Shown: in pieces, positions 22,993-62,978 of the stretch
How positions within the stretch are numbered: position 1 is the stretch's first letter
Layout of the letters: each line of letters begins with the position of its first letter
Assembly: GCF_018070025.1 (NCBI RefSeq)
Contig: NZ_JAGPYQ010000001.1
Span: 7,564,001 to 7,628,000, forward strand
Length of the DNA: 64,000 bases
Direction of reading: 5' to 3'
Source of the DNA: Streptomyces liliiviolaceus
GTDB lineage: Bacteria > Actinomycetota > Actinomycetes > Streptomycetales > Streptomycetaceae
The notes under the pieces: generated by a model
The model's database searches: none
What the model was told of the DNA's origin: nothing
Seen by the model: the letters and a program-made list of their open reading frames with translations, nothing else
Program-made: the position numbers and the translations under genes

Positions 22993-23059
22993 GACTCCGG
23001 GGCCCTGCGAGGGCTCCGGGACCCTGCACACCCTCACCTATTACCTCAAGGAGGCATGC

Positions 23060-23245: not shown

Positions 23246-23269
23246 TACCGACCGCGTCCATCGCTGTCC

Positions 23270-23300
23270 CCGGTCACGCCCGCGCTACGGGCGCGGCCGG
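23270..23300 (+). terminator. Possible attenuating hairpin between precursor and LanB
   Basis: CGCCCG-CGCTA-CGGGCG (23277-23293), extended by outer CCGG/CCGG pairs, lies 25-55 bases after the precursor stop. Hairpins here commonly lower expression of the enzymes relative to the precursor. There is no U-run. Confidence 0.4.
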
Positions 23301-23327
23301 GCAACCACGCAGTCCCAGGAGGGGCGT

Positions 23328-27472: not shown

Positions 27473-27509
27473 TGCCGTGCCCATCCGTACCGACACCGAA
27501 GGGTCTGAA

Positions 27510-45950: not shown

Positions 45951-46409
45951 ATGGCTGGGGCTGTGACCATTGCCCGGACGGGCCTCAGCGCCTCCTTCCA
46001 GTTCATCCCCCGGCTTGGCCTCGACGTCGTGTTCGAACGTTCCCGCGGCTCTGGGTCTGGAGTGATTGCGAAGGATGACCTGCTCTGGCCCCGGAGGATG
46101 AGGACCGTCGTACGGGCCGGCCTGGCTCCCTTGAAGCGTCCTGCCCTCACTGAAGATGCCGAAGTTCTCGTATGCGAGCTGGTTACCAATGCCCTCAGAC
46201 ACGGCCGGGGCGACGTCGGCGTGCGACTGCTCTTCTCTACGCAGCAGCTCCGAATCGAGGTCCGTGATGCCTCTCCCGACAGCCCTGTGCTTCGCAACGC
46301 CACGCCGGCGGACGAAAGCGGACGCGGCCTTTTCATCGTCCAAGCTCTTGCCTCCGAGTGGAGCATCAGCCCCGACGGCACGATGACCTGGTGCTCCCTC
46401 ACCTTCTGA
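45951..46409 (+). CDS. HATPase_c ATP-binding regulator
   Basis: This 152-aa protein has the RsbW/SpoIIAB-like ATPase fold: LTEDAEVLVCELVTNALRHG (N box), LRIEVRDASPDSPVL (G1) and ESGRGLFIVQALASEW (G2), ending SPDGTMTWCSLTF. ATG 45951 follows GAGGAGG. It closely resembles the HATPase protein of the lanthipeptide locus (20619-21092), down to the C-terminal SPDGTM.WCSLT. It is the first gene of a pair and precedes the second biosynthetic locus. Confidence 0.9.
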   Translation: MAGAVTIARTGLSASFQFIPRLGLDVVFERSRGSGSGVIAKDDLLWPRRMRTVVRAGLAPLKRPALTEDAEVLVCELVTNALRHGRGDVGVRLLFSTQQLRIEVRDASPDSPVLRNATPADESGRGLFIVQALASEWSISPDGTMTWCSLTF

Positions 46410-46420
46410 GAAGGATCGAC

Positions 46421-46906
46421 ATGGAACACGTCACGGCGCCAGCCCTGTTCCTGAATATGGACGCTGCCGGTCCAGCCTCTCCCTTCGTGGAGCGTCCGCA
46501 GACCTGTGAGCGGGAATTCCCCATCGGGCCGAATGCCGTGCTGCGTGCTCGGTTGCACGCCCGGACACGGCTCACGACTATGAGCTGGCACGGGGACCAG
46601 GACGAGGCTTTACTCATCGTCGACGTGCTGATGGCTAACGCCGTCAAGCATGTCGAACCGCAGCATCCGTCAGATGAGATCCGTCTTGGTCTGTCCGTGG
46701 ACGACGACGAAACGCTGCTGATTTCTGTGACGGACCCGAGTCCCGCGTTCCCGAACTTCGAGGAAGCCCGCGCCGCGGCGGGCAAGGGTTTCGCCCTCGT
46801 GCAGCTCCTCGGCGGTGAGCTCAGCTGGTTCATTCCGGAGGACGGCACATCAAAGACCGTCCAGGCACTGATCAGGTACCGCCCCACGCCGGGCGGCACC
46901 CACTAG
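46421..46906 (+). CDS. Divergent HATPase_c-like protein
   Basis: This 161-aa protein is a more divergent member of the same fold: EALLIVDVLMANAVKHVEPQ (N box with Ala in place of Glu at the usual position), LLISVTDPSPAFPNF (G1-like) and AAGKGFALVQLLGGELSWF (G2-like). It begins 11 bases after the preceding HATPase stop, with AAGGATCG ahead. The altered N box may weaken ATP binding, which suggests a partner role to the upstream HATPase. Confidence 0.8.
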   Translation: MEHVTAPALFLNMDAAGPASPFVERPQTCEREFPIGPNAVLRARLHARTRLTTMSWHGDQDEALLIVDVLMANAVKHVEPQHPSDEIRLGLSVDDDETLLISVTDPSPAFPNFEEARAAAGKGFALVQLLGGELSWFIPEDGTSKTVQALIRYRPTPGGTH

Positions 46907-47087: not shown

Positions 47088-48083
47088 ATGCCCTCACATG
47101 ACATGCCCTTGACGACGCCTCACCCGGCCGGCCGGGACGACGACCTGCGCCGCGCGCTGGAGGACCTGCGTCTGAACCGGTGGCTGTCCACGAAGGCGCT
47201 GCTCGCCGCGACAGGCAGTTTCTGGCCGCTGCGTACTTCCCGCAGCCAGGTTCTGGGCCACGCCGCAGCCCACACCCGCGTCATCGAAGAGTGGTGCTTG
47301 GAAGAGCCCGACAACGGGGACGCGCTGATGATGCTGGGCCGGGTCCTGACCGAGCGGGCGCTGCTCGCCCACCGCAAGGGAGTGGACCGGCGGGAGCTGA
47401 TGAACGCCGTCCTCTCAGCTCGTACGGCGAACAAGGCCGCGGCGGAGTGGTGGCCGGACGATCCGGTGCCATACGTCAACTACCTCGCTCTTGCACAGAC
47501 CGACACCGACCGAAGCAAGCCCCACAGCCCACGGCACTGGGTGGATCGCCCCGATTTACTGCCGTCGGGCCCATGGGGGCTGCTGCAGTGGGTGCAGCAG
47601 CGAGACCCCTACAACCGCGAGGCCTTCCACCGGATGCTCGCCGTCTTCCACGCCCGCGGACAGGACGGTACCGCCTTCGCTCAGTGGGCGGCCTCCCTCG
47701 CGCCCGACGGCTCACCGCTGAAAGTGCTGACGCTGCACGCCTACGTCCAGAGCTTTTGCAGGTACCACGAACAGGGAACCGGCTCGCTCTCGTTCTGGAG
47801 CACAAGCGAGAAAGCGAACTATGCGCGTCAGGCACTGGACGAGTGGTTCGAGCAGACGCATCCCGCGCCGGATGAGCCCGACTGGCGCTCTCTTCTCGAT
47901 CTGAACTACCTGGCGTACGCCCTGACCGCTACCGGCGAGGGAGGCGCGGCCGCCGTGTTCGAGGCGATAGGCGCGCACGTGACCACCGCTCCGTGGGCCC
48001 TCGTCACCCGGAAACACGAGTGGTGGCAAGAGGACTTCCTCAGGGCCCGCCGCTACGCCATGAGGTTCAGGAGCCGCCGATGA
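47088..48083 (+). CDS. Helical protein of unknown function
   Basis: This 331-aa protein is soluble, Trp- and Arg-rich and probably TPR-like (ALLAATGSFWPLRTSRSQVL, EEPDNGDALMMLGRVLTERA, NKAAAEWWPDDPVPYVNYLA, QQRDPYNREAFHRMLAVFHA). No catalytic motif is seen and I do not recognise the family. ATG 47088 follows GAGGGGG. Its stop overlaps an ATG (ATGA at 48080), and it may be the first gene of the second biosynthetic locus. Its position and fold recall the helical protein in the lanthipeptide operon, but no clear sequence similarity is visible. Confidence 0.75.
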   Translation: MPSHDMPLTTPHPAGRDDDLRRALEDLRLNRWLSTKALLAATGSFWPLRTSRSQVLGHAAAHTRVIEEWCLEEPDNGDALMMLGRVLTERALLAHRKGVDRRELMNAVLSARTANKAAAEWWPDDPVPYVNYLALAQTDTDRSKPHSPRHWVDRPDLLPSGPWGLLQWVQQRDPYNREAFHRMLAVFHARGQDGTAFAQWAASLAPDGSPLKVLTLHAYVQSFCRYHEQGTGSLSFWSTSEKANYARQALDEWFEQTHPAPDEPDWRSLLDLNYLAYALTATGEGGAAAVFEAIGAHVTTAPWALVTRKHEWWQEDFLRARRYAMRFRSRR

Positions 48084-48152: not shown

Positions 48153-48356
48153 TTGCACTTACCACGTACTCCGCGCAAGCCGGTTCGCGTCACCCGCGCC
48201 CGCCGCGTGCTCCACATCTCACTGGTTCTCATCCTGGCGGGCGGTGTGGTGTTGCTCTTCCCGGGACTTACTCACAACGCATTTGCCAGCACACGAACAC
48301 TCTGCCCGCCTCCCTCCTCACCGGAGGTGCACGGTGCCATTCAGGCGATCAGTTAG
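48153..48356 (+). CDS. Possible small membrane or secreted peptide
   Basis: A 67-codon frame from TTG 48153 has a basic N terminus (RKPVRVTRARR), one hydrophobic segment (VLHISLVLILAGGVVLLFPG) and a short tail ending SSPEVHGAIQAIS. This is a signal-anchor-like layout. AGAGGA lies 10 bases upstream. A competing frame from ATG 48080 also exists, so reality is uncertain. Its last codons double as the ribosome site and start of the next small ORF. Confidence 0.4.
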   Translation: MHLPRTPRKPVRVTRARRVLHISLVLILAGGVVLLFPGLTHNAFASTRTLCPPPSSPEVHGAIQAIS

Positions 48357-48546
48357 CGCGGTACTGACAGACATTGCCGAACTGCGCAGCATCGGCTACC
48401 CGCCCGAGGTCGCGCTGACGTTCAGCCTCTTCACCGGCCTGGCGTTGATCACCAGGGGCCTCCCTGACAACGCTGCCGCCCCTCACGCCCTCTCCACCCC
48501 TCCTTTCTCTTCCGAGGTATCTGGTGAATCACAGACGATCAAGTAG
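48334..48546 (+). CDS. Possible small peptide coupled to the permease gene
   Basis: A 70-codon frame from GTG 48334 reads RRSVSAVLTDIAELRSIGYP, PEVALTFSLFTGLALITRGL and ends SSEVSGESQTIK. GGAGG lies 7-8 bases before the GTG. The C-terminal pattern SSEVSGESQTIK parallels SSPEVHGAIQAIS at the end of the previous small ORF, and each end overlaps the start of the next gene. It could be a precursor peptide or only a leader ORF. Confidence 0.4.
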   Translation: MPFRRSVSAVLTDIAELRSIGYPPEVALTFSLFTGLALITRGLPDNAAAPHALSTPPFSSEVSGESQTIK

Positions 48547-50032
48547 CCGCCTGCCGGACAACGCCGTGCTGCGCAAGCTCGGCTACAAGTCCGAACTGGC
48601 CCGCGGAATGGGCGGATTCGGCAACTTCGCGGTCAGCTTCAGCGTGATCTGTGTCCTGGCCGGCGGCCTGACCCTGTTCGGGTACGGCATGAACACCGGC
48701 GGCCCTGCCGTCATGCTGTGGGGCTGGGTCGGCATCGGTGCCATGACGCTGATCCTGGGTCTGTGTCTGGCCGAGGTCACCTCCGTCTACCCCACCTCGG
48801 GCGGCCTCTACTACATGGCCCACCGGCTCGGCGGGCCCCGCTGGGCGTGGGTCACCGGCTGGCTCAACCTGCTGGGCCTGCTCGGCGCGATCGCCGGTAT
48901 CGACTACGGGTGCGCGCTGTTCGTCGGCGCGTTCGCCAACCTCCAGTGGGGCCTGGTGCCCACACCCGAGACGACGATGCTGATATTCGCCGGCATCCTG
49001 CTGCTGCACGGCACCCTCAACTCGCTCGGGATCAAGCTGGTCACCGTCCTCAATTCGATATCGGTGTGGTGGCAGCTCGGCGGTGTCGCGCTGATCGTCG
49101 GGCTGCTCGCCTTCGCCCCGGGCGAGCGGCAGAGCGCGGACTTCGTGTTCACGCACTTCAACAACGGGACGGGCTTCGACAACCCCGTCTATGTGGCCGC
49201 GCTGGGCTGTCTGCTGGCCGCGTACACGTTCTGCGGCTACGACGCGTCCTCCCACCTGTCGGAGGAGACCAGGGACGCGCAGATGGCCGCGCCAAAGGGC
49301 ATCGTCCGCGCCATCGCGTGGTCGTGGGCGGCCGGGTTCGTGCTGCTGGCCGGGCTGCTGTTCGCCATTGAGGACTACGCGGGCACCCTGGGCACCAGCA
49401 CCGGCGTGCCGCCCGCGCAGATCTTCATCGACGTCCTGGGTACCGGCGTCGCCAAGGGCCTGCTCCTCATCGTGATCGTCGCGCAGCTGTTCTGCGGGAA
49501 CGCCGAGACCGCTGCGGCGTCCCGCATGGTGTACGCGTTCTCGCGGGACGGGGCGCTGTGGGGCTCCACGACCTGGCGGCGCGTCACCAGCCGCACCAAG
49601 ACCCCCGTGTACGCGGTGTGGCTGTCCGTCGGCGTCGCGCTGTTCCTGGCGGCGCCCAGCCTGTACTCGCCGACCGCGTACGCGGCCGTGACCGCGATCA
49701 ACGTCATCGGGATCACGCCCGCCTACGTGATCCCGGTCTACCTGCGGCGGCGCTATCCCGAGAAGTTCACGCCGGGCCCGTGGAGCCTGGGCCGCTGGAG
49801 CAAGCCGCTCGGCTGGATCTCCGTCGTCTACGTGGTCGTCCTGACCGTCGTGTTCTGCCTGCCGCAGGCCTCCCCGATCACCACGCAGTCGTTCAACTAC
49901 GCGGGCGTCGCCCTCGCGGTGGTCCTGTTCATTGCGTGGCTCACGTGGGTCACCAAGGGCCGACGCTCCTACAAGATTCCGCCGCTCGGCAGTGACGCCG
50001 AAACCGTGGCCCTGTCCGAAGGCGTGGTGTGA
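48524..50032 (+). CDS. APC-family amino acid permease
   Basis: This 502-aa protein is a ~12-TM amino acid/polyamine/organocation permease: GFGNFAVSFSVICVLAGG, LAEVTSVYPTSGGLYYMA (helix 2-3 consensus), GYDASSHLSEETRDAQ (the APC loop motif E-E-T-x-D-A) and FCGNAETAAASRMVYAFSRD. It resembles eukaryote-like GABA/choline permeases of actinobacteria. GTG 48524 follows CGAGG. The stop is joined as TGATG to the start of the glutamine-synthetase-like gene, which suggests that the ligase acts on the imported substrate. Confidence 0.92.
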   Translation: MNHRRSSSRLPDNAVLRKLGYKSELARGMGGFGNFAVSFSVICVLAGGLTLFGYGMNTGGPAVMLWGWVGIGAMTLILGLCLAEVTSVYPTSGGLYYMAHRLGGPRWAWVTGWLNLLGLLGAIAGIDYGCALFVGAFANLQWGLVPTPETTMLIFAGILLLHGTLNSLGIKLVTVLNSISVWWQLGGVALIVGLLAFAPGERQSADFVFTHFNNGTGFDNPVYVAALGCLLAAYTFCGYDASSHLSEETRDAQMAAPKGIVRAIAWSWAAGFVLLAGLLFAIEDYAGTLGTSTGVPPAQIFIDVLGTGVAKGLLLIVIVAQLFCGNAETAAASRMVYAFSRDGALWGSTTWRRVTSRTKTPVYAVWLSVGVALFLAAPSLYSPTAYAAVTAINVIGITPAYVIPVYLRRRYPEKFTPGPWSLGRWSKPLGWISVVYVVVLTVVFCLPQASPITTQSFNYAGVALAVVLFIAWLTWVTKGRRSYKIPPLGSDAETVALSEGVV

Positions 50033-51426
50033 TGACCAGCGAAACCAGCTCCGATACCTGGTACGTCGCCCATCGGCCGCTCCTGACGCCGGAAGCGCTT
50101 GAGGATTTGGTGCGGGACGGCGAGATCACGACGGTGATGCTCGCGGTCCCCGACATGCAAGGCCGTCTCAAGGGCAAACTCCAGGACGCCCGCGGATTCA
50201 TGCACCGCTTTGGCGGGTCGGAGATGTGTGCCTACGTGCTCGCCACGGACCTCGACATGGACCCGCAGCCGGGATATGCCCTCACGGGCTGGCACGACGG
50301 ATTCGGTGACCTGCGTGCCGTCCCCGACGGCCGGGCCATGCGCCGCCTGCCCTACCTGCCCGGCACCGTCCTGGTCCACGGCGACGCCGTTCACCACAAC
50401 GGCCGGCCCGTCGACGTCGCCCCACGGCAGATGCTCCGCAGGCAACTCCAGGCGCTCCGCTCCTTCGGCCTGGAGGCCAAGGCCGGCGTAGAGAGCGAAT
50501 ACGTGCTCTACAACGGCACCCAGGCGCAGGTGCGCCGCCGCGGGTACCGGGGGCTCACGCCCGTCTCGCCTTACAACCTCGACTATGCGCTCGACCATCC
50601 GCCGGCGGTGAGTTCGTTCTTCGAAGACCTCCGGGCGGCACTGCACGGGGCCGGATGCCCGGTCGAGGCGTTCAAGACGGAAGGGGCGGCCGGTCAGGTC
50701 GAGGTGACGTGGCCGTACGGGGATCCGATGCGGGCCTGCGACGACTACACCGTCCACAAGCACGCCGTGCGCCACCTCTCCGAACGGCACGAGATGGTGC
50801 CCACGTTCATGGCCGCCCCGCGGACCGGCGTAGGCAGTGGTCTGCACCTGCACGTGTCCCTGTGGCACAGCGACGGGGACTCGGCGTTCTATGCGCCGCA
50901 GCCCGACGTGCTGCCCTCCGAACTTATGCAGCATTCCATCGCCGGGCTCATCGAGGCACTGCCGCACATGGTGCCCCTGTGCGCGCCCTTTGCGAACTCG
51001 TACAAGCGGTTCAGGCCGCACTCGTTCGCTCCGACGCGTTTCACCTGGGGGCGCGACAACCGCACGTGTGCGGTCCGGGTCATCGGCGAGGACACGAATC
51101 CGCACCTGGAGGTGCGCCTGGCGGGTGCCGATGCGAACCCGTATCTGGCTCTGGCCGCGGTGATCGCAGCGATCAACTACGGCCTGCGCAACGAGCCGAA
51201 ACTCCCGGAACCCTGCGCCGGGGACGGCTACGGTGCCGACGACGCACTGCCGGTGCCCAACAACCTGGACGAAGCCCTCACCGACTTCGCGGGGAGCGAG
51301 ATCGCGCAGCGCGCATTCGGCGCCTCCGTCGTGGACCACTACGCCCACGTCGGCGAGATCGAACTCGCCGTGGCCGAGGGGCAGGTCACGGACTGGGAAC
51401 TGCGGCGGGGGTTCGACCGTGCCTGA
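50032..51426 (+). CDS. Glutamine-synthetase-like ligase (GlnA-like)
   Basis: This ~464-aa protein is a GS-fold ligase of the kind that forms gamma-glutamyl amides with polyamines, ethanolamine or other amines. Visible motifs: VESEYVLYNG (metal-binding Glu pair region), GAAGQVEVTWPYGDPM, GSGLHLHVSLW (HLH/HVS metal-binding), FTWGRDNRTCAVRVIG and HLEVRLAGADANPYLALAAV. The adenylylation-loop Tyr motif of ordinary GlnA is absent. ATG 50032 overlaps the permease stop. Its stop overlaps the next gene by 8 bases. Substrate unknown; permease linkage suggests an amine or amino acid. Confidence 0.9.
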   Translation: MTSETSSDTWYVAHRPLLTPEALEDLVRDGEITTVMLAVPDMQGRLKGKLQDARGFMHRFGGSEMCAYVLATDLDMDPQPGYALTGWHDGFGDLRAVPDGRAMRRLPYLPGTVLVHGDAVHHNGRPVDVAPRQMLRRQLQALRSFGLEAKAGVESEYVLYNGTQAQVRRRGYRGLTPVSPYNLDYALDHPPAVSSFFEDLRAALHGAGCPVEAFKTEGAAGQVEVTWPYGDPMRACDDYTVHKHAVRHLSERHEMVPTFMAAPRTGVGSGLHLHVSLWHSDGDSAFYAPQPDVLPSELMQHSIAGLIEALPHMVPLCAPFANSYKRFRPHSFAPTRFTWGRDNRTCAVRVIGEDTNPHLEVRLAGADANPYLALAAVIAAINYGLRNEPKLPEPCAGDGYGADDALPVPNNLDEALTDFAGSEIAQRAFGASVVDHYAHVGEIELAVAEGQVTDWELRRGFDRA

Positions 51427-52525
51427 CCCCACCATCGGAGAGCGCATCCGGGGAGCGTTCCGCGACAAGGACGCGTTACGTCCCAAAGCCGCCGTTTTCT
51501 CCCTGACCGCCACGTCGGCGGGGCGAGTGCTGGGAGAGCTGGCGGGGCTGCTGCTGCTCGCTTCCCTGACGGGCCTGATCAACGGGGCGGCGATGGTGGC
51601 CGCCATATACGGCGTGCAGTGGGAGGTGAGTGACCTTCTGGGCATGACCCAACTCGCCTGCAGCGCTGTACTGGGCGCCTGGCTCACCTGGAGAGTCAGG
51701 CAACGGCCGGATCCGAAGGGCACACCGCGATGGTGGCCTCCACTCCGGACGCCTGCGGCGGGGGTTCTTGCCCTCACGGTCTTCTTCACGGCCATCCCCA
51801 TCGACAGCATGCTGCACGACGACGTGGGCCCTGCGCTGTTCGGGTGCGCGGTGGCATGGCTGGCCGTGGAAGTCTGCCGGGCGCACGGGGTGTGGGCGGA
51901 CAACGGGGCGCCCTACACGGCCGTTCAGCGGCTGCACGCCTGGCAGATCGCACAGATGGGGTTCGTCGCCTGCGCCGCGACGGGCTTCCTTTTCGGATGG
52001 CTGGCGATGTTCTTCCTGTGGATCGGCCCGGACTCCGTGCCGGTCATGCAGGACGATCAGTTGAGCGCACTCGGCATCAGCGGTCCGGTGGAGCTCGTCC
52101 TCGCCGTCGTGCGCGCCGTGGTGATCGAGGACGTCGTCATCGTCGCGGCCACGGTCACGCTGATGAAGGCTGTCCGCCGGCCCACGTGGGAGATCTACAC
52201 CCTGATCTGCCTCATCGAGGTCGCACTGCACGCCTACTTCGGCCTTCCCGCCATCGGCGCCGCTGTCATGGCCGCCGGCCGTGTCTGGCTGTACCTGCGC
52301 TACCGCAGCCTCCTGCCGCTGATGGTCTCGCACGCCCTGTGGGACTTCGTGCCCACGCTCCAGTCGCTTCCCTCCATTCCTCGGATGGCGTTGGGCATCG
52401 GTCTGATCCTGACCGTCAGCCTGGTCGACACACGGCTGAAGAAGGCCGCGGGCAAGGGGAAACCGTCGGCGCCCTCCCCGGTGGCCCCAGCGGCTGCCGC
52501 GGGCGACGAGGTGAGGAATCCATGA
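51419..52525 (+). CDS. CPBP (CAAX-like) intramembrane protease family protein
   Basis: This ~368-aa protein has about eight hydrophobic segments and the CPBP motifs in divergent form: VVIEDVVIVAATVTLMK (motif 1 with only one Glu), HAYFGLPAIGAAV (motif 2) and LMVSHALWDFV (motif 3, HxxxD). CPBP members process prenylated proteins or are self-immunity or peptide-maturation factors in bacteriocin loci. GTG 51419 overlaps the ligase gene. The tail is Lys/Ala/Pro-rich. Protease versus immunity role is open. Confidence 0.8.
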   Translation: MPDPTIGERIRGAFRDKDALRPKAAVFSLTATSAGRVLGELAGLLLLASLTGLINGAAMVAAIYGVQWEVSDLLGMTQLACSAVLGAWLTWRVRQRPDPKGTPRWWPPLRTPAAGVLALTVFFTAIPIDSMLHDDVGPALFGCAVAWLAVEVCRAHGVWADNGAPYTAVQRLHAWQIAQMGFVACAATGFLFGWLAMFFLWIGPDSVPVMQDDQLSALGISGPVELVLAVVRAVVIEDVVIVAATVTLMKAVRRPTWEIYTLICLIEVALHAYFGLPAIGAAVMAAGRVWLYLRYRSLLPLMVSHALWDFVPTLQSLPSIPRMALGIGLILTVSLVDTRLKKAAGKGKPSAPSPVAPAAAAGDEVRNP

Positions 52526-52593
52526 CCGACCCCGGCCGGTCCGTCCCCATGCATCCCGCCCTGACACCGGGCGAAAGTGAAGGTGCCGTATGA
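52522..52593 (+). CDS. 23-aa mini-ORF coupled on both sides
   Basis: ATG 52522 overlaps the CPBP stop (ATGA), and its own TGA overlaps the EEP start (ATGA). The product is MTDPGRSVPMHPALTPGESE followed by GAV. AGGTGAGGA lies 5 bases upstream, the best ribosome site in the neighbourhood. It may be a coupling leader or a very short precursor peptide of the radical SAM/methyltransferase locus. Confidence 0.55.
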   Translation: MTDPGRSVPMHPALTPGESEGAV

Positions 52594-53534
52594 CGAAAAG
52601 ATTCACCGCGCTGCTGTGGAACTTCGAGAACAATGGCGGCGACAACCGCCCCAAGCGGACACGGGCCCACAGGAGGCTGGCGTCCCTCGACCCGCATCTC
52701 GTGTTCCGGCAGGAGATGCCGACGGCGGACATCAACGGCAAAGCGGTCATGTACGAGCTGGAGGCCATTCTGCGCCTGCGTGGATGGCTCGGCGCGAAAT
52801 CGTGCACCGCGCTCTTCGCCCACCCGGACTACTTCCAGCCCGTGCGGGAGTTCCCGCCGCTCGCCTCCGGGCCGGTGATCCCCGCTCCCTCGTGGGAACT
52901 GCCGCCCACCGCGCTCGCCCTGCGCTACCTGCCGGCCGGTCCCGCCGCCACACCGATCGTCCTAGGCTCCTACCACCTCGACTACTCCTCCAGCGGTCAA
53001 CGCCTCACCGAGGCGCAGTGGCTGTCCCGGCTCGCGGACAAGAGGTGGACCACCCCGGAAGGCCAGACCGTACGGATGCCCTGCCTCCTCGGCGGGGACA
53101 ACAACAGCTATCCCGTCCCCGGCACCCCAGGCGACCCCCCGCTGCCGGTACTGGAGAACATCCAGGACCGGCGCCACCGCCTGCACCGCTCGTACGTCAG
53201 CCCGGACGGCAAACGACGGATGGACGACCGCCCCGACGAGGCGCTGCGCACCGCCGGCCTGGAGGACGTGGCCCGCTACAGATCAGCAACCTACGGAGAA
53301 CTGGCCGCGGTCACCCGCACAGTGAGTGGCTGCGCCACACACGGGCCGGACGCCCGCATCGACCGCTACTACGCCACCCCCGATGTAGCGGAAGTGGTGC
53401 TCAGCGTCGACGTGATCGAGGTCCACGAGAAGGAATCCGACCACCACATCGTCCGACTCGTCATCGACGGCGACGGCCTTTCGGACGTCCTCAATCTGGG
53501 GCGGAGCCGGCACACGTTGCCGACCGCTTCCTGA
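52590..53534 (+). CDS. Endonuclease/exonuclease/phosphatase (EEP) family protein
   Basis: This 314-aa protein is a paralog of 27510-28412: ALLWNFENNGGDN (motif 1 Asn), LVFRQEMPTAD (Glu), LGSYHLDYSSSGQRLTEAQW, LLGGDNNSYP (Asp-x-Asn), ARIDRYYATP and EKESDHHIVRLVI (Asp-His). All metal-site residues are kept. The substrate is unknown. It follows the 23-codon ORF (4-base overlap) and precedes the radical SAM gene by 78 bases. Confidence 0.88.
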   Translation: MTKRFTALLWNFENNGGDNRPKRTRAHRRLASLDPHLVFRQEMPTADINGKAVMYELEAILRLRGWLGAKSCTALFAHPDYFQPVREFPPLASGPVIPAPSWELPPTALALRYLPAGPAATPIVLGSYHLDYSSSGQRLTEAQWLSRLADKRWTTPEGQTVRMPCLLGGDNNSYPVPGTPGDPPLPVLENIQDRRHRLHRSYVSPDGKRRMDDRPDEALRTAGLEDVARYRSATYGELAAVTRTVSGCATHGPDARIDRYYATPDVAEVVLSVDVIEVHEKESDHHIVRLVIDGDGLSDVLNLGRSRHTLPTAS

Positions 53535-53612
53535 GACCGGCCGCCGGTGGGCCGGGCCCCGCGCTCCGGCCCGCCGGCGGCACTGCACCACCCTGCAGAA
53601 AGGAGATCGCTC

Positions 53613-54467
53613 ATGACGATCGCGCCCGAGGCTCCTGCTCGATCACGAGTGCCGGAGTTCCTCGAACTGGAGATCACCGGTAAGCGTCAGCTCACCTGCC
53701 CCACCCTCTGTTACGCCAACGCCGGCCCCACCGAGGGGCACGGCAGCATGACCACCGACGACTGGAAGCGGCTCATCAGTGAGGCCGCCGAGATCGGCGT
53801 ACGGAAAGTGCAGTTCATCGGTGGTGAGCCGACTCTGCATCCGGACTTCGACATTCTGGTGCATCGCGCCCTGGCGCTCGGCCTGGACGTGCAGGTGTAC
53901 AGCAACCTGTACCGCGTGCAGGTGAAGCACTGGGAACTGTTCATGCACCCGCGGGTGTCCCTGGGGACGTCGTACTACAGCGACGACCCCGCCGAGCATG
54001 AGCGCGTCACCGGCCGGAAGGGATCGCACGCCGCGACCCGGGCGAACATCGTCGAAGCCCTGCGGCGCGGCATTCCGCTCCAGGTCGGCATCGTTGAGGT
54101 GGAAGACGGGCAACGCACAGCGCAGGCCCGCGAGGAGCTGCTCGGTCTCGGGGTCCGCAGGGTCGTCACCGACCGAGTGCGCAGTGTCGGCCGGGGCGAG
54201 ATCCACACCCCGAGCGTCGGTGACCTGTGCGGCAGGTGCGCGAAGGGGAAGGCCGCAGTCATGACCGACGGCACCGTCACCCCGTGCGTCCTCGGGCGGT
54301 TCCTGTCCACGGGGAACGCGAAGACCGACGGGCTCGCCGCGGTGTTCAGCGGACAGACTTGGGCTGACACGGCAGCGAGCATCCCGCCCCGGATGGACGG
54401 ATGCCCTCCCGACGACTCCGGCGACTGCGACCCGGCAAATACCGATGCGTGCGATCCCGCCTACTGA
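53613..54467 (+). CDS. Radical SAM peptide maturase with altered first Cys
   Basis: This 284-aa protein has a radical SAM barrel: ELEITGKRQLTCPTLCYANA, then GHGSMTTDDWKRLISEAAEI, VRKVQFIGGEPTLHPDF (SAM-binding GGEP) and VYSNLYRV. A C-terminal twitch/SPASM-like part has CGRCAKGKAAVMTDGTVTPC. In the cluster motif R25 stands where Cys is expected (ITGxCQLxC in relatives), leaving C29 and C33. The codon is CGT, one base from TGT. The tail is Asp/Cys-rich (GDCDPANTDACDPAY). ATG 53613 follows AAAGGAG. It lies directly upstream of the PCMT-like methyltransferase and is the likely key enzyme of the locus. Confidence 0.85.
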   Translation: MTIAPEAPARSRVPEFLELEITGKRQLTCPTLCYANAGPTEGHGSMTTDDWKRLISEAAEIGVRKVQFIGGEPTLHPDFDILVHRALALGLDVQVYSNLYRVQVKHWELFMHPRVSLGTSYYSDDPAEHERVTGRKGSHAATRANIVEALRRGIPLQVGIVEVEDGQRTAQAREELLGLGVRRVVTDRVRSVGRGEIHTPSVGDLCGRCAKGKAAVMTDGTVTPCVLGRFLSTGNAKTDGLAAVFSGQTWADTAASIPPRMDGCPPDDSGDCDPANTDACDPAY

Positions 54468-54486
54468 AGAAGAGAGCCGACCAGCA

Positions 54487-55614
54487 ATGAAATGGCAGCC
54501 CTACGCCGCGTCTCTGGGGGACGAGATCATTCGTCCGGAGTCCCGCTGGTACCGCGCTGTGGCCAACGTGCCGCGGCATGAGTTCGTCCCCAACTGGTGG
54601 GAGCGCAAAGGTGACGGGTGGGTTCTGCGCACCGGCTCCGACGACACCGCCGGCTGGATGGAAGCGGCCTACGCCGACCAGACGCTCGTCACCCGGGTCG
54701 ATACTTCCTATGCCGACTACTCCCGTGTCGGTGCTGTCCTCGCCGGCGGCACGCCGACGTCGTCGTCGACGCAGCCCAGCCTCCTCGTCCGGATGTACGG
54801 GCACGCGATGATCACAGACCGGGATCATGTCCTCGTGACCACGGGCACCGGGTACGGCACCGCCCTGGCGTGCGCCCGGCTCGGCTACGACCAGGTCACG
54901 AGCGTCGATGTCGACGGGCACCTGGTGAACAACGCCAAGAACCGGCTCTCAGCGCAGGGCATGCGCCCGAAGATGGAGGTCTGCGACCTCACCGGGCCGC
55001 TGCCGGGCATCTACGACCGGATCGTCTCCACCGTGTCCGTACGTCCCGTACCCGTCTCCTGGCTCCGCTCGCTGCGTACGGGCGGCCGACTCGTGACGAC
55101 GATCGCCGGAACGGGCCTGATCCTCACCGCGGACAAGACCACGGACGGCGGCGCGGTGGGCCGTATCGAGTGGGACCGTGGCGGGTTCATGCCCACCCGC
55201 CACGGTGACGACTACGAACACCCGGCAGGCGACGACTGGAAGGGCGCCCGCGAAGACACCGGCGAGGAGACTTTCACCAGCCGGTACCCGCTCCTGTACC
55301 CGCCGGACGCATGGGACGTCATGTCGATGCTGGAGCTGGAGTTTCCGGGCATCGACTACCGCCAGCGCCAGGACGGAGAGATGCGCACGGTGTGGCTGAT
55401 GCACGATGGGGCATGGGCCCGCGCTACGGCGACCGGGTTCCTCACCTCACCGGTCGCCCATGAAAGCGGCCCCCGTCGGCTGTGGTCGGCGCTGGAGAAG
55501 ATCCGCGACCGCCTCAACCGTGGAGGCTCGCTCCCCGTCTACGGGGCCCGGGTCGCCATCACACCCGAGGGAGAGACCACGCTGACCCGCGGGAACTGGA
55601 AAGCAGTCCTGTAA
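54487..55614 (+). CDS. PCMT-like methyltransferase
   Basis: This 375-aa protein is a PCMT-type SAM methyltransferase with a C-terminal extension: SRWYRAVANVPRHEFVPNWW (PCMT N-terminal helix), VLVTTGTGYGTALACARLG (motif I), VTSVDVDGHLVNNAKNRL, YDRIVSTVSVRPVPVSWL and LRTGGRLVTTIAG. The layout is like the FxLD methyltransferase in the first locus (21787-22992). It may modify Asp or C-terminal carboxylates of a peptide. ATG 54487 (MKWQPYAA) lies 19 bases after the radical SAM stop. Confidence 0.87.
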   Translation: MKWQPYAASLGDEIIRPESRWYRAVANVPRHEFVPNWWERKGDGWVLRTGSDDTAGWMEAAYADQTLVTRVDTSYADYSRVGAVLAGGTPTSSSTQPSLLVRMYGHAMITDRDHVLVTTGTGYGTALACARLGYDQVTSVDVDGHLVNNAKNRLSAQGMRPKMEVCDLTGPLPGIYDRIVSTVSVRPVPVSWLRSLRTGGRLVTTIAGTGLILTADKTTDGGAVGRIEWDRGGFMPTRHGDDYEHPAGDDWKGAREDTGEETFTSRYPLLYPPDAWDVMSMLELEFPGIDYRQRQDGEMRTVWLMHDGAWARATATGFLTSPVAHESGPRRLWSALEKIRDRLNRGGSLPVYGARVAITPEGETTLTRGNWKAVL

Positions 55615-55768: not shown

Positions 55769-58354
55769 GTGCACGCTCAGGAGACCACGTTCAACGAACT
55801 CGTCCAGGGCGAGAAGCAGTACCAAGTGCCGCTCTATCAGCGCACTTACAGCTGGCAGCGGGATGAGCTGCGTCAACTCTGGGATGATGTGCAGGAGTTG
55901 GTTGAGGAGCAGTTGGAAGGACGGTCTCCGGCAGCGCATTTCCTCGGCTCCGTGGTGCTGGCCCCCGGCCGGATCACCGCTGGCGGCATGCAGCGCTGGC
56001 TCGTCGTAGATGGCCAGCAGCGGCTCACCACACTCATGCTCGCCTTTACCGCGCTGCGCGACCGCCACCGGGAACGCGGCGCGCAGCAGAAGGCTGAGCG
56101 CATCCACGACCTCGTGCTCGTCAACAAGTACCGCAGCGGCGACGATCACTACCGCCTCCTACCGACGCAAGCCGACCGCGACGCCTTCACCGCTTGCGTC
56201 GAGAGCTCTCCCAGAGCCGGTGGCCCTGGCAATGTGGGCGCCGCCTACCGGTACTTCCTGGGCGCACTCGCCGAGGGTGAGGAAAACGGCGGTGAGGTGT
56301 GGACAGACGCGGTGGAGACCGTGCTGAGCGGTCTGCTGTCGATCGTGGAGATCACCGCGTCGGAGGGCGACAACGTCTACCGGATCTTTGAGTCGATCAA
56401 CAACACCGGCGTCGGACTCAGTCAGAGCGACCTGCTGCGCAACTACCTCTTCATGTGCCTGCCGACCCGGGGCGAGTCCGTCTACCAGAATCTCTGGCTG
56501 CCCATGCAGGAACGGCTGGGCCCCGCCAACCTCGAACTCCTCGTCTGGCTGGACCTGGTGGTGGCTGGCAACAGTCGGGCGAAGCAGAGCGAGATCTACC
56601 GGGACCAGAAGAAGCGCCTTGAGCCTCTGAGCTCCGACGAAGCGGCTCTGGAGGGCGAGATCGCCTCCCTGGCCCGTCGGGCGGAACGTCTGATGCGGAT
56701 CCTGAAACCCGAGAGGGAGCCCGACCCGGAGCTGCGCGAAGTGCTGGAGAGGCTCTCCCGGTGGGGCGGCCAGACCCACTACCCGCTGGCTCTCCACCTG
56801 CTCGACCGCGTGGACGACGGGCAGGCCACGCCCCACCAGGCCGCCCGGGCATTGGCGTACGCCGAGAGCTACATGGTGCGGCGCCTGTTCACCGGACACT
56901 CCACCACGGGCAGTAACCGGGTGTTCATGGAGATGGCCAAGGACATGGAGAAGGACGACGATCCGGCCGATGCTGTAAGCCGCTTCCTGTCGAAGAGCAA
57001 GACGGGAGCCCGCGTTTGGCCCGACGACGACGCCGTCCGCGAGGCGATCCGCACCCGCCCCTTCTACAAGGCGGGCCGCAGCAACCAGCGGTTCCAGGTG
57101 CTGCGCAGGCTGGAGGAGAGCTACGGAGCCAGCGAACCGGTCGACTACGCCAAGGCCCACCTGACCGTCGAGCACGTGCTGCCGCAGAGCCCCGCGCACC
57201 AGTGGCTGGACCTGCTCGCCGAGGAGACCGAGGACGGGCAGGGCACCGAGGAGCTCCACGCCCTACTGGTCCACACGCTGGGCAACCTGACTCTCTCGGC
57301 GGACAACGCGAAGCTCTCGAACCATCCGTTCCGCCGCAAGCAGGAGATCCTGGACTTCAGCTCCCTGCGCATGAACCAGGAGATCGCAGGGCGGGAACGC
57401 TGGGGGAAGGCGGAGATCCTCAACCGCGCCGCCGCCCTCGCCGACCGGGTGGTACGGCTGTGGCCCGGCCCCGTCGCGGGCACGGTCCCGGTGGACGACG
57501 AATGGTCCGGCTGGAAGGAACTTCGGGCCGCGCTCCTCGCCATACCGGCCGGGACGTGGACGACGTACGGCGATGTCGCGGCGCTCATCGGAACCCACGC
57601 CGTCCCGGTCGGCCAGCATCTGGCGTCCAAGGTGGGCCTGCACGGCGCCTACCGGGTGCTGACGGCGGACGGTCGCGTCTCGGCGGGCTTCAGGTGGCCG
57701 GACGGCCAGGACCTCGGTGATGTGCGAACCCGCCTGGAGACCGAGGGAGTTTCCTTCGATGATGCGGGCCGGGCCCGCCGATCCCACCGGCTGACCACCT
57801 CCGACCTCGCGGCCCTTCTCGGCAAGGATGTCGCCGATGAGGCCGAGCCGTCACCGCGGGCCGACGGTGACGAGCAGCAGTCGACGGCCAACCGGTTCGA
57901 AACTCAGCTGCGCGACAACCAGACCGAGGAGACCGTCGACGGCGTCCTGAACGCCCTGCGCTTCTGGGAGCAGCAAGGCGGTCATCTCGCCTACGGTCGA
58001 GCGAGCGAGACCAGCTGCTTCCCCACAGTGCGTTTGGGCGACGCTCCCGCTTCCCGAGAGCTGTGGCCCCTGGCCCTCTATCCGGTCTCCGGCACCGTCG
58101 AGGTCGTCTTCCAATATCTGAAGCGACGTCCCCCGTTCGATGACGAGCCGCTGCGGCGCGAGTTGATGAACCGCCTGAACGGGATCGAGGGCATCGATCT
58201 GGCCGAGGCAAAACTGGACCTGCGCCCGTCCTTCGCGGTGGAGACCTTCGCCGCGCACAGCGAAAAGATCTGCGCGGTGCTGGAGTGGTTCGCGCATACG
58301 GCGGCTCTCGCGGAGGCCCGCCGTATGGTGGACAAGGACCCCAGCACTCCCTGA
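55769..58354 (+). CDS. GmrSD-type DUF262-DUF1524 nuclease with alkyltransferase-like domain
   Basis: This 861-aa protein starts with DUF262 (YQVPLYQRTYSWQRDELRQL; LVVDGQQRLTTLMLAF), an NTP-dependent ParB-like module of type IV restriction systems. It continues to a DUF1524 HNH nuclease (HLTVEHVLPQSP near residue 468, then HTLGNLTLSADNAKLSN). Residues ~590-645 are a methylguanine-DNA methyltransferase-like DNA-binding domain (IPAGTWTTYGDVAALIG ... GAYRVLTADGRVS) without the PCHR active-site Cys, that is, ATL-like. The last ~150 residues form an unassigned domain (ENTVDGVLN-type helix, WEQQGGHLAYG). It probably cuts modified DNA. It is oriented towards the DISARM-side genes and starts at GTG 55769. 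Confidence 0.9.
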   Translation: MHAQETTFNELVQGEKQYQVPLYQRTYSWQRDELRQLWDDVQELVEEQLEGRSPAAHFLGSVVLAPGRITAGGMQRWLVVDGQQRLTTLMLAFTALRDRHRERGAQQKAERIHDLVLVNKYRSGDDHYRLLPTQADRDAFTACVESSPRAGGPGNVGAAYRYFLGALAEGEENGGEVWTDAVETVLSGLLSIVEITASEGDNVYRIFESINNTGVGLSQSDLLRNYLFMCLPTRGESVYQNLWLPMQERLGPANLELLVWLDLVVAGNSRAKQSEIYRDQKKRLEPLSSDEAALEGEIASLARRAERLMRILKPEREPDPELREVLERLSRWGGQTHYPLALHLLDRVDDGQATPHQAARALAYAESYMVRRLFTGHSTTGSNRVFMEMAKDMEKDDDPADAVSRFLSKSKTGARVWPDDDAVREAIRTRPFYKAGRSNQRFQVLRRLEESYGASEPVDYAKAHLTVEHVLPQSPAHQWLDLLAEETEDGQGTEELHALLVHTLGNLTLSADNAKLSNHPFRRKQEILDFSSLRMNQEIAGRERWGKAEILNRAAALADRVVRLWPGPVAGTVPVDDEWSGWKELRAALLAIPAGTWTTYGDVAALIGTHAVPVGQHLASKVGLHGAYRVLTADGRVSAGFRWPDGQDLGDVRTRLETEGVSFDDAGRARRSHRLTTSDLAALLGKDVADEAEPSPRADGDEQQSTANRFETQLRDNQTEETVDGVLNALRFWEQQGGHLAYGRASETSCFPTVRLGDAPASRELWPLALYPVSGTVEVVFQYLKRRPPFDDEPLRRELMNRLNGIEGIDLAEAKLDLRPSFAVETFAAHSEKICAVLEWFAHTAALAEARRMVDKDPSTP

Positions 58355-58459
58355 GACCCTCCGTGCCCCTTCCAGCGGAGCGTGGGGCGACGGCATCATG
58401 CAGGCCCCACGCGCGTCACGCATGGGGCCCGTAGCACTGCCGTACGGGTCCTATGGACA

Positions 58460-60610
58460 CTACGGGCGCGGGTTGACGACCGGCGCTAGGAATGGACTCG
58501 GCGCTCCGTGCCAGGACACCCGCAGCGCCTCGCGCGCCCGCGTGCACGCCACGAATAGCAGGTTCAGCTCGCCGTTCAGGTCCTCCTGGTGCTGCTGTGC
58601 GTCGACCTCGACCGCGGTGACGGCCGACTTCATCGGCACGGTGCCGTCATTCACGCCCGTGACGGCGACGCAGCGGAACTCCAGCCCCTTCATCCGGTGC
58701 ATGGTACCGATCCGGACACCGGTACCACCGCGCCCAGCACCGAGCACGCACGCGGCGACGCCAGCCTGCTCCAGGGCCTGGGCGATGTCCCGCCCGAGCT
58801 GGACGAAGCGCACGGCAACCCCGATATCCTCCGCCCGCACCCCCGCGCCGGTCCAGTCCCGCAGGCGGGCCACCAGCGCCTCGATCTCTTCCGGCTTCGT
58901 GGCATACCCGGCAGTCTCCGGTCGCTCTCCATGCATGGTCGAGCGGTATCCCGCCAGCGTCTCGTTCCCGCCGTCCATGTCGTCCGGCTCCTCACCGGTC
59001 AGCAATGAGGCCGACCAGGCCAGGATTTCCTGCGTGGTGCGGTAGTTGATCCGCAGTCGGTGCGAGCGGCCGACGACGCGGACGCCGAGTGAGCGCAGGG
59101 ACACCCGGTTCCCGTAGATCCGCTGGTAGGTGTCCCCGGCGAGGAACAGATCGTCCTGGCCGGGAGTGACCAAGGTCCGCAGGAACCGCCACTGCGCGGG
59201 GTGCAGGTCCTGCGCCTCGTCGATCACGACATGGCGGTACGGCCGCTTTTCCCGGCCGTCCAGGACGCGTGCCGCCTCCGCGCACACCTGAAGGAACGTC
59301 CACTCGCCGGCCTGGCGCAATTGCTCCTCGAACGCGGTGACAGCTCGCCATACCTGAAGGCGTTTCAGCGGTGGGAGCGCGGTGCCACGGCCGGTGCGCG
59401 GCGCCTTCAGGTACTCCTCCGGGGCCGTCAGGGCCTGCGCCAGGACGATCTGACGCCACTCCTGGTCGAGAAAGACGTCCGTGAAGTCGACCTCCAGCCG
59501 CCGGGCGATGCGCGCCCAGCGGGCGGTGATCTCCTTCTGGTCGACGACCATCTTCAGCGGGGCGCCGCCGTGTTCCGCCCGCACGATCTCGTTGGCCAGG
59601 GCGTCGACGTTGACCACCCGGATCTTCGCTCGGACGTTCTCCTCCTCGACCAGCAGCGTCAGACAGCGCTCCAGCTCGGCCGCGAGGTCCCTGGTGAAGG
59701 TGGTAAGCAGAATGCATCCGTCGGGGGCGTCCTCGGGAAGTTGCCGGGCCAGGTGATACGCCCGGTGCAGGGCGACCACCGTCTTCCCCGTGCCGGGCCC
59801 GCCGGTGACCCGGGCCGGCCCGGCGTAGCGCTCGTGGTACGCCACCCGGTACTGGCTCGGGTGCAGAAAGACCCTCCAGGCGTCGAACGGCCGCTCCAGG
59901 ATTCCTTGCAGTTCGACGGGGCCCGACACGAGCGCGACCCGGCCGCGGGAACGGGCCATCGCGGCTTCCAGCTCATCGCCGTCATCGGCTCCGGAAGTCC
60001 GCCCGGCGGTCCGGGCATACGCCTGCACCAGTTCCCGGTCGATCGCCTCGGGCTTCATCCCGGTCGCGAGTCCCAGCAGCACGTCGTACTGATGCTCCGG
60101 CATCACCTTGTGCAGTGCTTCCAGATGTTCCTCGTCCGGGATCAGCCGGATGATCGGCACGATCTCCTCGTCCACGCCGAGGCTGCGCAGCACCTTGTCC
60201 GGGTAGTCGGAGGCGGGGAACAGGCGGGTCGGTTCTTCGGCGGCGAGCGCACGCAACCCCGCGGTGGCGCGTTCCAGGGCCACGTCGTTGCGTATCTCGA
60301 TGCCCTGCGTCGCCTCGTTCACCGACGCGCGGTGCTTGGCGGCCCAGTCGTTGGCCTTGTCATGGGGGAGCACCTTGAGTAGCAGGTAACTGTCGCCCGA
60401 CTCGCCCTTGAGGACAACGCCGCGCCAGAAGCCGGTGATGCGGATGGTCCGCAGCCGAGGGTCCTTCTGGTGCGTCAGCTTCTCCAGGTGCAGCCCGGTG
60501 TGCGTGGCCGCCGTGAACTTCTCGAACACCTCGAAGACCCGCTTCTGAACGGGTTTCTCCAACGCCGCGAACTCCAGCAGGAAGTCCCGGTGCATCCCCA
60601 GCGTCGCCAT
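58460..60610 (-). CDS. RelE-like domain fused to UvrD/Rep-type helicase
   Basis: This 716-aa protein begins with a RelE/ParE-like toxin-fold domain (FLLEFAALEKPVQKRVFEVF, EKLTHQKDPRLRTIRITGFW then RGVVLK, about residues 8-90), then a linker and an SF1A helicase: Walker A VTGGPGTGKTVVALHRAYHL (near residue 270), Walker B VVIDEAQDLHP, LRINYRTTQEI, GTMHRMKGLEFRCVAV and LLFVACTRAREALRV. Such fusions are found in defence islands. ATG 60610 follows GGAGGGG. It lies downstream of the 450-aa gene and convergent with the GmrSD gene. Confidence 0.9.
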   Translation of the reverse strand: MATLGMHRDFLLEFAALEKPVQKRVFEVFEKFTAATHTGLHLEKLTHQKDPRLRTIRITGFWRGVVLKGESGDSYLLLKVLPHDKANDWAAKHRASVNEATQGIEIRNDVALERATAGLRALAAEEPTRLFPASDYPDKVLRSLGVDEEIVPIIRLIPDEEHLEALHKVMPEHQYDVLLGLATGMKPEAIDRELVQAYARTAGRTSGADDGDELEAAMARSRGRVALVSGPVELQGILERPFDAWRVFLHPSQYRVAYHERYAGPARVTGGPGTGKTVVALHRAYHLARQLPEDAPDGCILLTTFTRDLAAELERCLTLLVEEENVRAKIRVVNVDALANEIVRAEHGGAPLKMVVDQKEITARWARIARRLEVDFTDVFLDQEWRQIVLAQALTAPEEYLKAPRTGRGTALPPLKRLQVWRAVTAFEEQLRQAGEWTFLQVCAEAARVLDGREKRPYRHVVIDEAQDLHPAQWRFLRTLVTPGQDDLFLAGDTYQRIYGNRVSLRSLGVRVVGRSHRLRINYRTTQEILAWSASLLTGEEPDDMDGGNETLAGYRSTMHGERPETAGYATKPEEIEALVARLRDWTGAGVRAEDIGVAVRFVQLGRDIAQALEQAGVAACVLGAGRGGTGVRIGTMHRMKGLEFRCVAVTGVNDGTVPMKSAVTAVEVDAQQHQEDLNGELNLLFVACTRAREALRVSWHGAPSPFLAPVVNPRP

Positions 60611-60723
60611 CCGTGCCCCTCCAGAAGACTACGATCACTTTACTGACCGCTGTCGATGTGCAATGCCGGTCCATACGCGCCAGGGCGCGAAGGCTGATGG
60701 CCAGGGTCCGCCTACGGCGCGGG

Positions 60724-62076
60724 TCAGTTGACTCGGCGGTTGCCGGGCGGAACCTCGCTCCGGTGCATTCCCACGACGACGGAGCCCGGTCCGCCGACGG
60801 ACAGACTCTCGCGTATCAGGTCGATGACGTAGTCCCAGCCGGTGCCGCGCGAGCCGATCCATCCGTCCCTGAGCAGCGTGGTGAAGGTGGTGTTGTTCAG
60901 GTACCGAGGAACTGACTCCTCGACGATGCGCGTACCGCCGGACGGCCCGTCGGCCTCGGGGCGTTGGAGCAGTTCCTGGAAGTGCTCCCGGGTCAGATAC
61001 ATGCCGGGGATGAGAGCGGCGGAGTTCATCATGAAGGGAGTGGTCCGGCACAACTTGACCATGCTGGGAGTGGGGACCAGGCGCGGGTCACCCAGCGTCG
61101 CCGAGCTTTCTTGGCTGGATCGAGACCACTCGTCCTCAGCCTTGCACTCGTCGTCCACGGTCTCCATCCGCTTCACTTCCCGCTCGCCGGTGGCATCGTG
61201 CCAGTACACCCAGCCGGGCCCGCTCTGACGCATCCGCTTGTACTGGACCATGGCCACGCTGCGGGCGTGCTCGTTCACGTAGATCATGTCGACGCCCATG
61301 ACGGTCTCGGCGTTCGTGCGATTGGCGTTGTACACGAATAACCGATGGCGGGATTCGGAGTTACGACGGTAGATCCGCCAGCCGACCTGCACGGCGTCCT
61401 CGCCCTCCATGCCAGGGAAGCGCAGGTAGTCGTGGACGATCTGCTGGTCCTCGATCTGCCGGAGAGCAGGCAGCCCTTCGATGAAGGGGACGGAACGGGA
61501 TCGGGGATCATCCCCGCTGAGCGGTTGTTGCCATGCTTCGAGCGCATCGCGGTCCGCGCCGAACGTCTCCATGAGGGTTCCCACGGCATCCTTCTCAAGG
61601 CTCCGCTGTTCTCCCTCCCGACCTGTCGGAGGATTGGCCCCCAGGCTGTTCTCCAGGTCGTCCAGCGTCTCATTCAGTTCCGGCCGCAGATTCCGCACGG
61701 CGGCGAGCAGGTTGTCGCCAGCCGCGGGAGACAAACGACCGTCGTCCTTGAGGTATCGGCGGCCGGCCCCCATGGCGCCCTCAAGATCGACGAGCGGCAG
61801 CGGAACCCGGAGTGCGGTGAAGTCACGGGCGAGCAGAGCGCGTTCGTAGGTACCCGACCGCCTGCCCGGGAAGACGCCGCCCAACCCGATAATCCTGCGC
61901 TGCTCATAGCGGGCGTGACGGTCCGTGATGAAGGCGAGACACCACACACGCGGCTTCCTCCAGTCCTTGTACGGGTACGCGAAGGTCCGCTCACCGCGGG
62001 TCAGCCAGGCCGGAGACTTTTCGGGGAGCCGCTCCGTCATCAACGCGGTGCTGTGCACCAGGGCGACGGCGACCAT
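60724..62076 (-). CDS. Defence-island protein with a PD-(D/E)XK-like motif
   Basis: This 450-aa protein is not assigned to a named family. Residues 258-281 read TVMGVDMIYVNEHARSVAMV then QYKRM, the D-(X14)-QxK pattern of Mrr-like PD-(D/E)XK nucleases (D263, Q278, K280). The N-terminal half contains YPYKDWRKPRVWCLAFITDR and helical segments, and the C-terminal half HFQELLQRPEADGPS and TTFTTLLRDGWIGSRG. A perfect AGGAGGT lies 5 bases before ATG 62076. It sits between drmC and the RelE-UvrD gene on the same strand, 121 bases after drmC. Confidence 0.75.
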   Translation of the reverse strand: MVAVALVHSTALMTERLPEKSPAWLTRGERTFAYPYKDWRKPRVWCLAFITDRHARYEQRRIIGLGGVFPGRRSGTYERALLARDFTALRVPLPLVDLEGAMGAGRRYLKDDGRLSPAAGDNLLAAVRNLRPELNETLDDLENSLGANPPTGREGEQRSLEKDAVGTLMETFGADRDALEAWQQPLSGDDPRSRSVPFIEGLPALRQIEDQQIVHDYLRFPGMEGEDAVQVGWRIYRRNSESRHRLFVYNANRTNAETVMGVDMIYVNEHARSVAMVQYKRMRQSGPGWVYWHDATGEREVKRMETVDDECKAEDEWSRSSQESSATLGDPRLVPTPSMVKLCRTTPFMMNSAALIPGMYLTREHFQELLQRPEADGPSGGTRIVEESVPRYLNNTTFTTLLRDGWIGSRGTGWDYVIDLIRESLSVGGPGSVVVGMHRSEVPPGNRRVN

Positions 62077-62197
62077 CTGCGACCTCCTGCATCGTGTAAA
62101 CCTGGAGGCTTAATTGTTGGCCAGGTTCCGACCGTCAGGGCTCAGTGGCCGTCAACCGGCCATGCGAATGGCGATGATTCGACGGTGACGGACCTCA

Positions 62198-62965: not shown

Positions 62966-62978
62966 CGGGTCGATCCGC

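Follow-up and report, generated by a model that had tools for sequence, protein, structure and literature searches.

We examined a 64,000-nucleotide stretch of the Streptomyces liliiviolaceus genome (hereafter the window; positions 7564001-7628000 of contig C1, in a genome of 11.1 Mb and four contigs), in which an initial annotation made from the sequence alone had placed a single peptide-biosynthetic class of seven coupled genes at 48153..55614. Comparison with related loci reveals that this locus is a composite of two adjacent modules and not one gene class. The first, module A, includes an APC amino-acid permease, a glutamine-synthetase-like (GS) ligase and a CPBP (Rce1-like) membrane protease; the second, module B, is a joined pair of a radical SAM protein (rSAM; 53613..54467) and a PCMT-like methyltransferase (MT; 54487..55614). 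The rSAM belongs to a SPASM/twitch-like family with a Cys/Pro-rich C-terminus, here termed the CxP tail, and the type of this tail tracks the partner gene. It could well be, though we put it somewhat short of an even chance, that in this composite locus the tail is an in-cis substrate of both the rSAM and the MT.

Two modules that mostly occur apart

Searches of 295 genomes of the window's own genus recovered matches to the rSAM in 59 of them (E 1e-20), and relatives of the GS-like ligase in 35 (E 1e-130), of the EEP-like protein of module A in 27 and of the CPBP protease in 20 (both E 1e-10). The module A order, HATPase-TPR-like-APC-GS with or without a following CPBP-EEP, occurs elsewhere without rSAM or MT. 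This includes a second copy in the same genome, on contig C2 (L152; hereafter the C2 copy), where the 20 kb inspected contain zincin genes and no match to either protein. The rSAM and MT in turn form a widespread two-gene unit, plasmids included: among 68 rSAM loci fetched with up to about 8 kb per side, tblastn (cut-off E 1e-4) recovered the MT in 42, the TPR-like, APC, GS and CPBP genes in one each, all in L047 (Streptomyces sp. NBC_00414, genome G109), and a single weak EEP match (27%; L054). The permease and ligase therefore occur independently of the rSAM and MT, and the coupling proposed for all seven genes is not supported.

What did survive of the proposed conserved co-occurrence is that the order TPR-APC-GS-CPBP-rSAM-MT recurs in a few genomes, namely in NBC_00414 and, with a CPBP only 37% alike, in S. 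apricus (L175), so that rSAM-MT follows the cassette in three loci, the window included. The full set with the EEP-like gene and a 23-aa open reading frame (ORF) was met in the window only. In a second S. apricus locus (L172) a run of N is followed by GS, what is left of a mostly deleted CPBP, rSAM and MT, and in genome G032 (L161) a short rSAM start lies beside CPBP, with the rest of the gene, frameshifted, about 8 kb further on; this cassette fell outside the rSAM stretch fetched from G032 (L083) and was recovered later. In L171 an rSAM-MT pair is flanked by two EEP-like genes and an FxLD-type methyltransferase of the kind found in lanthipeptide loci. The rSAM-MT unit has thus met FxLD-type islands more than once. 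Elsewhere it has other company: on linear plasmids (L039-L042) it precedes a conservon-like set of roadblock, DUF742 and GTPase genes, and in L043, L049, L053 and L055 it lies, in a further fixed setting, downstream of kinase-like and lactate-dehydrogenase-like genes and of a gene for an HPr kinase-like protein (the last recognized by eye).

A C-terminal tail that tracks the partner gene

The window rSAM ends in the tail CPPDDSGDCDPANTDACDPAY, comprising three units (54402..54464, forward strand). The rSAM has 1597 relatives at E 1e-20 or better, of which the named close ones are mostly from Streptomyces. From the 68 loci, 66 yielded an rSAM ORF (L046 and L070 did not), making 67 alignment rows with the window, of which five were dropped for tails shorter than 45 aa. 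In the remaining 62 rows, an MT lies downstream of every tail of the DSxD (32/32) and PDCGPNDD (6/6) types, of none of the ECxPGxPxSxCxP (0/9), PMCGPC (0/6) and NPSFDTC (0/2) types, and of one of the seven unclassified tails; for L055, L065 and L074 MT presence was taken from tblastn.

The tail is also conserved. The 19 residues leading to its last CxP show 64% pairwise identity versus 50% for the body, with 6 of 212 body windows scoring higher (33 sequences, the PDCGPNDD group left out); these figures were obtained without a motif filter, a filtered version having been set aside as circular. In the motif-filtered and thereby biased set, most non-cysteine positions of the tail are conserved too. 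A structural model built with 38 sequences has a pLDDT of 80 overall and about 50 in the tail, suggesting that the latter is poorly ordered.

Tails were inspected in two sets of 120 proteins, the best-scoring of the 1597 relatives and the best-scoring relatives of a distant family member, a Reyranella protein. The latter set comprises 113 proteins with at least three CxP (up to 12), one with two and six with none. Among ten distant loci from other groups, seven (L182-L188) have at least four CxP within 45 residues, and no separate CxP-rich gene-like frame was found in any of the ten. The repeats are informative in their own right. L186 has six identical peptide units encoded by six different DNA units, with 82 of 135 codon comparisons differing, all synonymously; over all nine units compared, nonsynonymous differences are also present. 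In L187 the repeat copies are near-identical in DNA, which indicates that the arrays also expand, and L076 has a 21-aa unit in two versions. Downstream of the proteobacterial rSAM in L184, L185 and L187 we observed, by eye, an amidohydrolase-like gene.

A profile of the tail searched against 50 genomes gave 35 matches, 33 of which are rSAM C-termini by their coordinates; of the other two, one is the end of an rSAM next to a transposase-like gene and one is a weak match beside a degenerate rSAM end. A 66-aa ORF with a tail in G022, considered as a free precursor, proved to be an rSAM end adjoining a transposase-like gene. In L253, L255 and L260 MT genes have, by eye, only the tail end of an rSAM upstream, the body being gone.

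A proposed role for the tail

Judging by the families of its proteins, module A probably takes up an amine or amino acid for ligation to glutamate, and the CPBP protein would act as a protease. Module B would be a mobile maturase pair of the kind that acts on ribosomally synthesized and post-translationally modified peptides (RiPPs), for which we found no separate precursor, the core peptide being the rSAM's own CxP tail. The rSAM would cross-link the tail cysteines in cis, and the PAMT-like MT would then esterify the aspartate of the DSxD motif, giving an aspartimide or isoaspartate. This chemistry, its order and the release of a product are what we infer beyond the observed separation of two modules, conservation and repetition of the tail and link between tail and partner. 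The sequences DSG and DSN are plausible aspartimide sites, and such sequences stand in the tail. According to one review, PAMTs convert aspartate to isoaspartate through a methyl ester and an aspartimide, and most of them depend on a cyclised precursor peptide (PMC11285071).

More tentatively, the proteins might constitute a cross-phylum family of rSAM maturases, each with its own multi-core substrate as a CxP tandem-repeat tail, in which the second enzymes are swapped by tail type. On this suggestion, these second enzymes would include the PAMT-like methyltransferase, a kinase-like protein (identified by eye) and others, and the whole would be RiPP systems that lack a separate precursor.

Several observations weigh against a substrate role for the tail. 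With the PDCGPNDD group included (39 sequences), tail identity is 53% and 94 of the 212 body windows score higher. In six of the 120 distant relatives no CxP follows the SPASM motif, and three of those six proteins are at least 300 aa long; of the ten distant loci L180 and L181 have one CxP each and L190 none. Tail type probably follows the rSAM clade, so the link to the partner may not be independent of descent. No constant export gene or protease was noticed beside module B, although no dedicated test was made, and because joined A and B loci are rare any functional link between the modules is conjectural. Lastly, the body keeps C206, C209 and C225, one short of four, and an auxiliary cluster could be bound by cysteines of the tail.

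Such iron-sulphur (Fe-S) ligation is the main rival to the tail as substrate. The locus would again be composite, with the tail serving as a metal or Fe-S ligand or as a docking arm, and the substrate would be an unlinked peptide, protein or small molecule. This is a credible alternative, if on the doubtful side. The three conserved body cysteines leave one ligand to find; the nearest structures include SkfB, SuiB and EpeE, enzymes with auxiliary clusters; and CxP tails occur also without an MT. However, the number and spacing of the tail cysteines vary widely, most positions other than cysteine are conserved as well (in the biased set), and the repeats of L186 are kept at the protein level.

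The state of module B in this strain

The rSAM of the window has an arginine (Arg25; codon 53685..53687, forward strand) in place of the first cluster cysteine, so that its motif reads RX3CX3C and this copy has only two of the three cluster cysteines of an active radical SAM enzyme. In the set of 120 proteins that includes it, 116 have all three cysteines, three do not cover the segment, and the window protein alone has arginine; even a relative 97% identical to it (P0002) keeps the cysteine. In the locus set, L053 has tyrosine at the first cysteine site and the fragment L105 tyrosine at the third. The spacing in this near clade is CX3CX3C in 108 of 120 proteins and CX3CX2C in nine, with three unread, and among the distant relatives CX3CX2C in 117 of 120, again with three unread. 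CX3CX3C is given once for NifB (PMC9692996).

Because of the arginine, module B may be inactive in this strain, or the sequence may be misassembled. Branch-specific counts of nonsynonymous and synonymous changes are 11/25 for the window rSAM (20/23 on the control branch, L047) and 19/26 for the MT (25/27 in L047). Both genes therefore look selected until recently, and the loss of the cysteine would be recent or an assembly error. These counts bear on an alternative in which the rSAM-MT pair was inserted beside module A by chance, as an accident of mobile islands, and is now dead and decaying here. The arginine agrees with decay, as do the interrupted and frameshifted rSAM of G032, the truncated rSAM that adjoins a transposase-like gene in G022 and the CPBP gene, mostly deleted in L172 and split in the C2 copy. 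Nevertheless, the window shares its gene order with L047 and L175, which speaks against it, as do the branch counts of both genes, and we regard it as unlikely.

Small ORFs and the search for a precursor

The initial annotation had looked to small ORFs for a precursor, and a single seven-gene pathway can be drawn in which the 23-aa ORF (52522..52593) or small ORFs upstream supply it and the ligase and permease add a gamma-glutamyl group. It would account for the start/stop overlaps within the run (APC/GS, GS/CPBP, CPBP/23-aa ORF and 23-aa ORF/EEP; the EEP end and rSAM start are separated by 78 bp) and for the recurrence of TPR-APC-GS-CPBP-rSAM-MT in a few genomes. None of the small ORFs, however, showed the behaviour of a conserved precursor. 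Between the 23-aa ORF and its counterpart on C2, 7 of 72 bases have changed, five nonsynonymously and two synonymously, a near-neutral pattern. Among 22 sources tblastn matched it only in the window and the C2 copy, with none in L047 or L161, and no counterpart was seen by eye in L172 or L175. It was accordingly rejected as a precursor and is probably a vestige: in the C2 copy the 23-aa ORF is immediately followed by an EEP shrunk to its first and last residues (by eye), which provides a precedent for this interpretation.

The small-ORF stretch upstream of the permease (48331..48546) is near-identical to the C2 copy in DNA, apart from a gap of one base and a few mismatches toward the 3' end, and a precursor role for it is unsupported. 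The small ORFs proposed at 48153-48546 are likewise unsupported as genes. A 71-aa ORF, matched only in the C2 copy among the 22 sources (tblastn), is identical to it at 57 of 57 residues, yet the DNA is equally alike, pointing to gene conversion. Indeed, nearly 300 bp (about 48314-48600, versus about 7670-7955 of L152) are practically identical, the module A copies being otherwise about 88% alike, and this identity is the outcome of recent gene conversion. Also rejected was a 67-aa ORF; its C2 counterpart is 69% alike, and by eye L167 contains something faintly similar. Finally, a BLAST comparison (E 1e-4) of the 18-140 aa ORFs around 37 rSAM-MT loci, with inspection of only those clusters that span at least four loci, gave no precursor-like family; the clusters represented shadow frames, neighbourhoods of near-identical sequence, or small proteins that by eye resemble ordinary regulators. 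With the modules independent elsewhere, as in the C2 copy without rSAM or MT, and a conserved small ORF not found, the single pathway is largely refuted, and we consider it highly improbable.

Gene content and the company of module A

All named genes of the run lie on the forward strand. The permease (48524..50032; PF13520, E 3.6e-61), GS-like ligase (50029..51426; PF00120, E 9.4e-83), CPBP protease (51419..52525; PF02517, E 7.4e-6, above cut-off), rSAM (PF04055, E 8.9e-13) and MT (PF01135, E 1.2e-9; its ORF opens at 54445, with a probable start at 54487) were confirmed by Pfam; the EEP-like protein (52590..53534) remains weak, matching PF03372 at E 0.27, below cut-off. Considered as a gamma-glutamyl ligase of the Puu/GlnA3/GlnA4 kind, which would use an amine other than ammonia, the ligase scores below cut-off for both TIGR03105 and NF045547. 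Of the neighbours proposed upstream, the first HATPase regulator (45951..46409; PF13581, E 9.2e-12) is supported, the match of the second (46358..46906) is below cut-off, and the TPR-like protein (47088..48083) has no Pfam match. Identities to the C2 copy are 69% for the second HATPase, 56% for TPR, 98% for APC, 92% for GS, 78% for the 23-aa ORF and 90% for EEP, the CPBP there being split over two frames; the permease is 89-90% identical to those of L047, L161 and L175.

Thirteen TPR-APC-GS cassettes, from loci chosen for fetching and not from a census, were counted (the window, L152, L047, L161, L175, L153, L154, L162, L164, L167, L198, L199 and L203). The TPR-like gene precedes APC in all 13, and the GS gene of L161 is frameshifted. 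Lanthipeptide LanB/LanC genes lie within about 10 kb of five, namely L162, L167, L198, L203 and L047 (the last together with L200), and L152, L153, L154, L164 and L199 have neither LanB/LanC nor rSAM-MT in the stretch covered. Models for the FxLD precursor and methyltransferase each scored above cut-off in 11 of 12 genomes searched (G253, the source of L203, was not among them), adjoining GS only in G128, G024, G235 and G109. We take module A to be an accessory cassette found repeatedly next to FxLD-type lanthipeptide genes. G109 has two FxLD-type cores (C1 2870918-2921228), one of them joined to TPR-APC-GS-CPBP-rSAM-MT. The window itself carries an FxLD core at 21820-28412, with a methyltransferase (21820-22986), precursor (23126-23233), LanB and LanC, followed by a paralogue of module A's EEP. 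Immediately after the MT is a defence island (55769-63938) with a GmrSD-type restriction protein and a UvrD-like helicase and, toward the window end, DrmC and DrmB of DISARM.

Comparison with known systems

The RiPP-like character first attributed to the enzymes is upheld, the rSAM fold being nearest to SkfB and SuiB and the MT to the graspetide family TIGR04188. FxLD class I lanthipeptide systems (TIGR04363/TIGR04364) resemble the locus in having LanB/LanC beside module A in the five cassettes above, but here rSAM-MT stands in place of LanB, LanC and the FxLD precursor: the sole precursor match in the genome (G000) is that at 23126-23233, and LanB/LanC matches in the window are confined to 23271-27469, apart from a weak match to part of LanB at 28535. 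The MT matches TIGR04188 at E 1.3e-69, yet below the family cut-off (235 vs 380 bits), and its partner is an rSAM, not an ATP-grasp enzyme. No ATP-grasp was detected among the run genes scanned (Pfam and NCBIfam; EEP by Pfam only), and the adjacent ATP-grasp and tgmA-like precursor of graspetide loci were not found. One MT relative, in L042, carries the annotation tgmC and adjoins tgmB and tgmA, and in 7 of 20 further MT loci the upstream end is an ATP-grasp-like frame by eye; for the TIGR04188 family, 717 occurrences together with ATP-grasp enzymes have been listed (PMC8939145).

The predicted rSAM fold resembles the SPASM/twitch maturases SkfB, SuiB, EpeE and ChlB (Foldseek E 6.8e-12 for SkfB), from which the protein differs in its CxP tail, the lack of a separate precursor in our searches and the CX3CX3C motif of its near clade. 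Open-access full texts searched with terms on the fused tail, rSAM with isoaspartyl methyltransferase, FxLD, CX3CX3C and GS with lanthipeptides yielded no paper naming a CxP-tailed rSAM/MT system. If the tail is the substrate, the principle would be that of the borosins, in which enzyme and core are fused, although the borosin enzyme is an N-methyltransferase and not an rSAM. RiPP genome mining usually starts from a precursor adjoining an enzyme; were the core fused to the rSAM, such systems would be missed by precursor-based mining, though their relatives are numerous.

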